A DNA stretch of 48,400 bases from a virus: positions 1-48,400 of IMG/VR virus record IMGVR_UViG_3300047666_000377. One strand, given 5' to 3'. Below the pieces are notes generated by a model. It did no database searches. It had not been told where the DNA came from and was given only the letters and a program-made list of their open reading frames with translations. Made by a program: the position numbers and the translations under genes. Shown piece by piece: positions 12,491 through 14,753 of this stretch (position 1 is the stretch's first letter; each line of letters begins with the position of its first letter).

Positions 12491-12746
12491 AACTGGAGAC
12501 CCAGTAGTACTGATAGACAACACAAGTCTAGAAGAGTATGACCTAAAGGTGGGGACTAAGGGGTGGGCTAATAGTGTCACCTCAGTTCCCGGTAATGGTA
12601 CATACATCTTCTTCATGCCAGAAGGTGACAAGGAGATGTATGTTCTTAGTGCTAGTAGACTAGAGGTTGATGAGGGGGCTAAGGCTGCTGGTCTTGAGCT
12701 TAATGAGCATACTCTACAAGGGAGAGGTGACGTATTAGATGCTTAA
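12480..12746 (+). CDS. SH3-like small protein, 88 aa
   Basis: Pattern of short strands with Gly turns (VKTGDPVVLID, KVGTKGWANSV, GTYIFFMPEGD, MYVLSASRLEV) resembling an SH3-type barrel. ATG inside the upstream gene. Its 3' end overlaps the apparent start of the exonuclease (12734). Role unknown; replication context only. Confidence 0.5.
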   Translation: MVIKTGDPVVLIDNTSLEEYDLKVGTKGWANSVTSVPGNGTYIFFMPEGDKEMYVLSASRLEVDEGAKAAGLELNEHTLQGRGDVLDA

Positions 12747-13708
12747 TTGACGCAGATGTTCTAGTGTATGAGCTTGGGTTTAGTGGTCAGTATTATGAAG
12801 AGGAAGAGTATGAGGTGGGCTTGTTTAGAAAGACAGACAAGCTTATTATTAGAGACTTCTCCTTCGTAGCTGAACTTCTTGATCAACGTGTTAAGGAAAT
12901 AGAAGCAGAGTGCTGGGCTAATGAGCCCTCCACTTTGTTCCTTACTAACGACAATACGCTTAACAAGCAATGGAACAGACTGAGAAAGATAAGAGGGGAG
13001 GAGCCCATTGAGTGTAAGCCTAACTTTAGGACAGCTATAGCAGAAGCTAAGGTGTATAAAGGACAGCGTACACAAGAGAAGCCCTACCATCGTGACAACA
13101 TAAGAGCCTATATGCTATCTGAGTATGACGTAGTGGTAGCTAATGGCATGGAGGCTGACGATATGTTAGCCATTACACAAACTAACGCACCACCACTAAC
13201 CACCATAATCTGTACTAGAGATAAGGACTTGAGGATGGTAGCAGGGATGCACTATGGTTGGCCTTGTGGTAAGCAGCTACAGTATGGGCCTAAGCAAGTG
13301 GAAGGTCTAGGGGAGTTGGAACTTAATGGAACCAAACTTACAGGAACAGGTTGTAAATTTTTCTACAGTCAAGTGCTCACAGGGGACTCAACAGATAACT
13401 ATCCCGGTCTACCTAGATGTGGGCCAGCCGGAGCTTTCAAGTTACTTGCGGGTAAACAAACTGAGGCTGAACTTTTCGAGGCCACTAGTGGAGCCTATAG
13501 AGATAAGTTTGGAGATGGTTGGGAAGATAAATTCTTAGAGCAAGCGAGGTTAGCTTGGATGGTAGTACAATTAGATGACCAAGGGGAGCCTGTTATGTGG
13601 GAGATGTATGATGGCCCCACAACTGCCCAGTTTGATGAAGATCGTATGGACATTATTGGTCAGAATGGTAACGATGGTGAGCACTACGAGGTGGTAGGAG
13701 ATGCGTGA
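12734..13708 (+). CDS. 5'-3' exonuclease (T7 gp6 / FEN-like), 324 aa, apparent AUU start
   Basis: Degrades DNA from 5' ends and removes primers or recycles host DNA. Motifs: LIDADVLVYELGF at the N-terminus (first catalytic Asp), MEADDMLA near residue 138 and TRDKDLRMV near 160 (metal-binding acids), then LTGDSTDNYPGLPRCGPAG near 215, the helix-hairpin-helix with GDSTDN. The first canonical start in frame, GTG 12764, would delete LIDADVL. The frame is open upstream only to TGA 12728, leaving ATT 12734 (6 nt after GGGAGAGG) or ATT 12746. AUU at 12734 gives MRCLIDADVLVYE. A one-base change could alternatively restore ATG 12739. Codon style shifts around the GDSTDN motif. Confidence 0.85.
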   Translation: MRCLIDADVLVYELGFSGQYYEEEEYEVGLFRKTDKLIIRDFSFVAELLDQRVKEIEAECWANEPSTLFLTNDNTLNKQWNRLRKIRGEEPIECKPNFRTAIAEAKVYKGQRTQEKPYHRDNIRAYMLSEYDVVVANGMEADDMLAITQTNAPPLTTIICTRDKDLRMVAGMHYGWPCGKQLQYGPKQVEGLGELELNGTKLTGTGCKFFYSQVLTGDSTDNYPGLPRCGPAGAFKLLAGKQTEAELFEATSGAYRDKFGDGWEDKFLEQARLAWMVVQLDDQGEPVMWEMYDGPTTAQFDEDRMDIIGQNGNDGEHYEVVGDA

Positions 13709-13829: not shown

Positions 13830-13905
13830 TCATGACTACCTATTAGAAATAGAAGAAGAAGCTAGGCACTTATCAACATGTGCCGAGGAGGAAACTGATG
13901 GCTGA
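13816..13905 (+). CDS. Very small acidic peptide, 29 aa
   Basis: METSDHDYLLEIEEEARHLS and a short tail; strong ribosome binding site GAGGAGGTGGTAG. Overlaps both neighbours, which favours a translated gene, but the length prevents certainty. Confidence 0.4.
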   Translation: METSDHDYLLEIEEEARHLSTCAEEETDG

Positions 13906-14233
13906 GCACATTATCTCAAACCAAGCTAAGTGTGCTAAGTGTGGGGATGTTATATATAGTATGAGCAGACACCACTACGTTGAGTGTAGTTGTGGGGCTG
14001 TTATGGTAGATGGGGGTAATGCTTACTTAAGACGTAGTGTAAGCCCACACTTCATAGATCAATCCCTAACGATGGATAAGGAGGACTTCATCGCTATCTT
14101 GGACTACACCAAGGAGATGTATAATAGCAGGAACTCCCTAGGGATATTGTATGGTGTCTTCAGGGCGCTACGTGATCAAGGTTATGAAGTGGTGAAGAAG
14201 GAGGAGACTGATGGGAGTATTCGTGATAAGTGA
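13898..14233 (+). CDS. Zinc-ribbon protein (DUF7695-like), 111 aa
   Basis: Residues 11-46 contain CAKCGDVIYSMSRHHYVECS then CGAVMVDGGNAYLRR: CxxC plus CxC with a YLRR ending, a pattern I associate with an uncharacterised phage and bacterial zinc-ribbon family. The rest is helical. Start ATG 13898 after GAGGAGGAAACTG is preferred to the upstream GTG 13880. Overlaps the phosphoesterase gene by 23 nt. Confidence 0.65.
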   Translation: MAEHIISNQAKCAKCGDVIYSMSRHHYVECSCGAVMVDGGNAYLRRSVSPHFIDQSLTMDKEDFIAILDYTKEMYNSRNSLGILYGVFRALRDQGYEVVKKEETDGSIRDK

Positions 14234-14753
14234 CCTGCACATAGGGCACAAAAATATCCTTAAGTTTGGTGATGGTACTCACCGAGACTGGGCAGGGGCT
14301 GATGTGTCCACCCACAATGACACACTTATCTCAAGGATAAACAGCAAGGTGAAGAAAGCTGACAAGTTATTTATCCTTGGTGATATTGTATTTAGGCGGG
14401 AGAACTTGCACTACTTAGCACAAATAAATAGTCGGCACATCCACCTAGTACTTGGGAACCATGATACTGAGTATTTTAATGTAAGGGACTACCTACCATA
14501 TGCTGAAAAGGTCAGCGGTATGGAACGGCATGGAAAGTTTTGGCTTACGCATGCTCCAATACACCCTTGCGAACTTAGGGGGAGGGGAAATATACATGGC
14601 CATGTTCATAGTAATGATGTGCTTGGATTAGACGGAGAGATTGACAGGAGATATGTCAACGCCTGTGTTGAGGCATTGGAAGGCTACCCTATTAACATTC
14701 AAGACATATCAAATGGCTACTACTGGGAGAGACGGAGGTATTTTAATGGCTAG
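14211..14753 (+). CDS. Calcineurin-like metallophosphoesterase, 180 aa
   Basis: All signature motifs are present: SDLHIGH near residue 7 (D-x-H), LGDIVF near 55, LGNHD near 80, LTHAP near 108 and GNIHGHVHS near 125 (GHxH). These bind a two-metal centre that hydrolyses phosphomonoesters or phosphodiesters. The compact size matches the phage and YfcE-like single-domain group. Whether the target is nucleotide, 2',3'-cyclic phosphate or protein phosphate cannot be read from sequence. A second, different family member sits at 15745, and an RNA ligase at 17064. Confidence 0.88.
   Translation: MGVFVISDLHIGHKNILKFGDGTHRDWAGADVSTHNDTLISRINSKVKKADKLFILGDIVFRRENLHYLAQINSRHIHLVLGNHDTEYFNVRDYLPYAEKVSGMERHGKFWLTHAPIHPCELRGRGNIHGHVHSNDVLGLDGEIDRRYVNACVEALEGYPINIQDISNGYYWERRRYFNG

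Follow-up and report, generated by a model that had tools for sequence, protein, structure and literature searches.

The window, that is, the whole 48,400-nucleotide stretch of viral DNA analyzed here, has its nearest annotated relatives among the Zobellviridae and shares their gene order (primase-helicase, sigma, polymerase, phrog_862 gene, exonuclease); by these features it is a Zobellviridae-like phage. The exonuclease gene (Table 1) matches the PHROG_107 profile over its full length (E = 1.2e-57), and homologs align to it over the full length, with 63-70% identity for the nearest and about 61-70% across the ten closest relatives, while Pfam PF02739 and PF01367 match only below their curated cut-offs. 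A Foldseek search with the AlphaFold model returned T5 D15 flap endonuclease, E. coli ExoIX, and T4 RNase H as the best PDB matches, with E of 1e-4 to 3e-3 for the top matches and low TM-scores (0.30-0.36) from a model of medium confidence. The product is predicted to be a FEN-like phage 5'-3' exonuclease of PHROG 107 with the FEN fold. Protein family and fold are shared with T5 D15, T7 gp6, and the PHROG 107 flap endonucleases/5'-3' exonucleases, but T7 gp6 and most of the named relatives checked have a canonical start, unlike the AUU of the window.

In the frame of the exonuclease, the stop codon TGA 12728-12730 is followed by CGT, ATT (12734), AGA, TGC, TTA, ATT (12746), GAC, GCA, GAT, GTT, CTA, and GTG (12764), and the bases just 5' of ATT 12734 read AAGGGAGAGGTGACGT. 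Not a single ATG, GTG, or TTG occurs in this frame between TGA 12728 and GTG 12764, in agreement with the bases and coordinates given in the first-pass annotation. No tRNA gene was found in the window, which leads us to reject a phage-encoded tRNA as the cause of AUU initiation. In the closest relatives the stop codon of the small upstream ORF falls before the exonuclease ATG; this stop codon is lost in the window, where the ORF extends 13 nt into the exonuclease gene.

Table 1. Features around the exonuclease start of the window
Feature	Position	Strand	Remarks
Small upstream ORF, 88 aa	12480..12746	+	13 nt overlap with exonuclease start
Extended Shine-Dalgarno site AAGGGAGAGGTGA	12718..12730	+	GAGG, then 6 nt (TGACGT), then ATT; duplex of -12.8 kcal/mol with 16S 3' end
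ATT (AUU) codon, almost certain start	12734..12736	+	Pairs codon-for-codon with ATG of ten closest relatives; same in contig L001
Predicted 5'-3' exonuclease (FEN-like, PHROG 107), 324 aa, AUU to TGA	12734..13708	+	Profile, homologs, AlphaFold model
Out-of-frame mini-ORF ATG CTT AAT TGA	12739..12750	+	Begins 5 nt past AUU start; +5 ATG also in ATG-start relatives
Catalytic N-terminal motif L-I-D-A-D	12743..12757	+	D6 at 12749, D8 at 12755; lost with GTG 12764 start
GTG, first in-frame canonical codon, rejected start	12764..12766	+	No Shine-Dalgarno site (-1.1 kcal/mol); start there removes D6 and D8

The start codon of the exonuclease

The comparison of homologous starts proposed in the first-pass annotation puts the relatives' ATG at ATT 12734. 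The aligned codon is ATG in all ten of the closest relatives, and the spacing of M-x-C-L-I-D (M-Q-C-L-I-D in the relatives, I-R-C-L-I-D in the window) is unchanged. Because the relatives' ATG is aligned there and the distance to LIDAD is equal, the start is placed at 12734 and an inserted c is ruled out; translation of the exonuclease almost certainly begins at AUU 12734. The window thus combines what marks infC- and pcnB-type starts, namely an AUH codon (AUU, AUC, or AUA) at the homologous start, no canonical alternative, and a Shine-Dalgarno site that is strong, extended, and properly spaced.

The first-pass annotation had also offered another reading, in which the c at 12742 is an extra base and the gene originally began at ATG 12739. 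A frameshift or extra base at 12742 is rejected on the spacing in the relatives and on the bases of L001, a contig of a different IMG dataset, whose start region is identical and whose single mismatch in 5365 bases against the window lies elsewhere. Relatives such as L002, L004, and L008 likewise have an ATG that is out of frame and lies five bases past their own true ATG (ATGCAATG), so ATG 12739 is, as the alignment reads, not a relic of an earlier start. Of the two readings in the first-pass annotation, then, the AUU start stands and the frameshift or extra base falls. The mini-ORF that begins at ATG 12739 is a possible competitor for the Shine-Dalgarno site of the AUU start. A programmed +1 frameshift from this ATG (ATG CTT, then +1 into ATT GAC) could use the same Shine-Dalgarno site, but it is highly improbable, given that the +5 ATG is out of frame in ATG-start relatives, is missing in the AUH relatives L039 and L087, and is not conserved, and that a conserved slippery site is absent.

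The Shine-Dalgarno site that had been noted 6 nt ahead of ATT 12734 was confirmed, with pairing energies of -12.8 kcal/mol for ATT 12734, -7.2 kcal/mol for ATT 12746, and -1.1 kcal/mol for GTG 12764, as calculated with the usual 16S 3' end, which is assumed for the host. The claim that the enzyme needs its N-terminal LIDAD also holds up, as L4, I5, D6, and D8 are invariant in two homolog alignments. The inner acidic motifs EADD, RDKDL, and GDxxDN are, like LIDxD, invariant or nearly so. LIDAD is part of the product only with a translation start upstream of 12749. A gene caller would annotate a shortened protein from GTG 12764, the first canonical codon in frame; we consider this start very unlikely and reject it on the absent Shine-Dalgarno site, on the loss of the first core strand (residues 2-6 of the AlphaFold model, mean pLDDT 72.8) together with the invariant D6 and D8, and on the 17 AUH relatives described below, all of which have their next canonical codon beyond D6.

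Termination-reinitiation at ATT 12746, with fMet-D-A-D as the product, would draw on the overlap TAATT, in which the last A of the upstream stop TAA 12744-12746 is the first base of ATT 12746, and gene overlaps are common in these phages. This TAA, however, comes from the conserved L-I codons TTA ATT, and a +13 overlap is shared by relatives that start at the aligned position. Conservation of M-x-[CPA]-L-I-D extends upstream of ATT 12746, and the Shine-Dalgarno pairing is weaker there; ATT 12746 is disfavored on pairing and shared overlap, and there is very little chance that it is the start.

Recurrence of AUH starts in related phages

Profile-based start positions were compared in 191 distinct exonuclease relatives, taken from IMG/VR and from named phages, and brought out a recurrence of AUH that the first-pass annotation had not noticed. 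At the homologous start, the codon is ATG in 133, AUH in 19 (ATC 10, ATT 5, ATA 4), GTG in 7, and TTG in 5, the others having offset starts. The M-x-[CPA]-L-I-D motif is conserved at the N-terminus. In none of the 17 strict AUH cases does the open frame contain a canonical codon upstream of the start; downstream, the first is reached only past the catalytic D6 in 17/17. On an exonuclease tree built with the start columns left out, parsimony requires 15 changes for these 17 rows, and therefore the switch to AUH happened many times; the reconstruction points to about 15 separate origins, most likely from ancestors that had ATG. The exchange is not essential, because the nearest relatives use ATG. 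The AUH rows have stronger Shine-Dalgarno sites, with a median of -10.9 kcal/mol versus -6.0 kcal/mol for ATG rows (Mann-Whitney p = 3e-5, no Shine-Dalgarno filter applied). Overlap with the upstream gene occurs in the same fraction of AUH rows (10/17) and ATG rows (81/133), and closer coupling to the upstream gene is rejected on this ground as the cause of AUH. Bacterial genome contigs contain few exonuclease relatives, with readable starts of ATG or TTG and others not exactly placeable.

A cultured case is Salinivibrio phage CW02 (L345, NC_019540), which reads AAAGGAGGTGACTT-ATT-ACG-CCA-TTA-ATT-GAC at 13880. By homology and a perfect Shine-Dalgarno site, its exonuclease (13880-14674) probably starts at ATT 13880. 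The RefSeq exonuclease gp26 begins at 14027, which is 49 codons late and leaves out the catalytic aspartates; with an AUU start, the RefSeq protein would be truncated. Among the remaining named Zobellviridae-like phages that were checked, the homologous start is ATG in most and TTG in two, and a few have longer exonuclease N-termini that are not alignable at the start.

An all-against-all comparison, in which homologs vote the start of each ORF of at least 80 codons, extended the survey to other genes. A first round left 62 of 1465 ORFs lacking any canonical codon close to the voted start; in 32 of the 62, AUH stands precisely at that position, more than chance would give when AUH makes up 5.3% of background codons (binomial p about 1e-24). 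With a stricter vote, an AUH start with a good Shine-Dalgarno site was found in 37 of 1261 early-region genes, including a few near-duplicate contigs and a few genes with a one-codon shift of the aligned start, as against 1 of 1163 in T7-like phages (Fisher p = 5e-10), all p-values of the survey being indicative only, since the sequences share ancestry and do not count as independent, and since the phages of the T7 set are closely related. ATA starts occur in 3/79 primase-helicases and 2/54 polymerases, and AUH was also seen in the HNH gene that follows the exonuclease and in a few others. The phrog_862 gene adjoining the exonuclease has none in 149 (Fisher p = 5e-5 versus exonuclease), and none was found among the late-strand control genes, of which only 55 were usable, giving weak power. 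The figures for more than one AUH gene per contig (4/19 versus 11/178, p = 0.04) are only suggestive of co-occurrence in several genes.

Several individual loci may be listed here. The primase-helicases of L275 (1692), L280 (4220), and L305 (1934) have ATA plus a Gly codon after GGAGG or GGGGG at the homologous position. An unannotated HNH-type gene lies just downstream of the exonuclease in L266 (from about 2361) and L347 (PQ867839, from about 19602), with ATA after GGAGGTAGTT as the homologous start. In Citrobacter phage CVT22 (KP774835, about 26023; L183, 2443), the HNH gene is annotated from ATG 25996, and homologs together with AGAGGAGGTGTTCA point to ATC, 9 codons further upstream, as the start. 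In the T7-like isolate L384 (about 11906), ATT replaces ATG after GGAGGATATCACT at the start of a small T7 gene homolog, which we take to be 6.7. L074 (3426, HNH-like gene) and L166 (1495, exonuclease) have possible CTG starts with strong Shine-Dalgarno sites.

These surveys bear on sequencing or assembly error, whether by an added c at 12742 or by a wrong base call within an ATG at 12734, which might be expected of a metagenome-derived contig in which one base change restores a normal start. Random errors in ATG would also yield ACG, AAG, AGG, and CTG, whereas the tally of non-canonical starts over all genes is 37 AUH, 1 CTG, and 1 ACG. About 15 independent lineages and the cultured CW02 are alike, L001 has the same bases, and the distance to LIDAD is that of the relatives. 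Error or decay is unlikely, because neither gives stronger Shine-Dalgarno sites nor third-base-only changes, and for the window we regard error as extremely improbable.

Mechanism, purpose, and known systems

Initiation complexes on non-canonical codons are destabilized or repressed by IF3 (PMC5472188, PMC2268962). In the mechanism we propose, the extended Shine-Dalgarno site (GGGAGAGGUGA, with 6 nt after GAGG) would set initiator tRNA-fMet on AUU despite the third-base mismatch, giving an exonuclease with the N-terminus fMet-R-C-L-I-D-A-D. As AUH is the codon class destabilized by IF3, the yield would be a fraction of that of AUG and would depend on IF3 activity and growth state. A DNA-degrading enzyme wanted in few copies would in this way be kept at a low, state-dependent level, the candidate purpose being to limit an enzyme active on DNA ends and flaps. 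Many related phages have made this exchange independently. It affects mainly the exonuclease but also primase-helicase, polymerase, and HNH genes, and the Shine-Dalgarno site that goes with it is usually strong. We put the explanation as a whole, comprising AUU start, extended Shine-Dalgarno site, and low-level nuclease, at roughly 85%. That low exonuclease expression is under selection appears somewhat probable, and the idea that IF3-dependent regulation matters during infection is tentative. A strong Shine-Dalgarno site may partly compensate for the weak codon, so that net expression may not be low.

Low and possibly state-dependent synthesis is suggested by analogy with known systems. For autocontrol, infC, the gene of IF3, starts with ATT in E. 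coli and with ATC in Streptomyces (PMC5472188); in S. aureus its start is AUA and an extended Shine-Dalgarno site is reported, so that, as in the phage exonuclease, the AUH codon varies by lineage. Nevertheless, infC belongs to the host and is controlled by the IF3 that it encodes, whereas the phage nuclease has no known feedback, many origins, and ATG relatives. E. coli pcnB (poly(A) polymerase I, translationally limited) starts with AUU according to a citation in PMC1780047, and, as cited in PMC13009471 and PMC1780047, this codon limits an enzyme wanted at low level; pcnB is a single host gene, while AUH in the phages recurs across a family. In S. aureus, cvfC1 (AUU), ccpN (AUA), and citZ (AUA) combine AUH with a strong extended Shine-Dalgarno site, as the phage does; the output of AUU and AUA starts with such sites is about 10% of that from AUG, and ccpN reaches up to 30% of AUG in rich medium and varies with growth medium (PMC13009471). 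These are regulatory and metabolic genes, with the start conserved in cvfC1 and ccpN, in contrast to repeated gain in phage replication genes. Streptomyces sigR, IF3-repressed, likewise restrains a potent protein by a non-canonical start (PMC5472188), but this start is GTC rather than AUH, and sigR is not a phage gene.

The main rival on purpose accepts the AUU start and differs in taking AUH mutations as neutral and unregulated, tolerated where few copies are needed and the Shine-Dalgarno site is strong. The strong sites at AUH rows and the scattered, apparently short-lived AUH origins among close relatives with ATG agree with it. By contrast, neutral change should make GTG and TTG commoner than AUH, and the exonuclease family has 12 versus 19; CTG is almost absent, and the AUH codon seen most often in the exonuclease is ATC, which differs from ATG by a transversion. 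The 2017 work of Hecht is said to have found GTG and TTG to be better start codons in E. coli than AUH. We consider neutral tolerance a serious but less probable account, inseparable by sequence from selected throttling.

Experimentally known AUH starts are, to our knowledge, confined to a handful of bacterial genes. AUH initiation as such is already known. The literature searched, mostly without subscription journals, contained no report of AUH starts in Zobellviridae-like phages, nor of a phage nuclease family that gained them repeatedly together with stronger Shine-Dalgarno sites. Gene finders limited to ATG, GTG, and TTG drop the catalytic aspartates of such proteins or miss the gene, and phage gene surveys are biased because AUH genes are shortened or missed in this way; AUH-start nucleases are thus overlooked or shortened. 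It is conceivable, though doubtful, that AUH with an extended Shine-Dalgarno site forms in Zobellviridae-like phages a recurrent, selected control class for DNA-replication enzymes, through which the synthesis of nuclease, primase-helicase, and polymerase in infection would respond to IF3 activity, to host growth state, or to a phage factor loosening the fidelity of start-codon choice. One phage gene family with about 15 AUH gains makes start-codon fidelity in infection testable, for example in CW02, and the recurrence suggests that restraining a nuclease in this manner is common among these phages.
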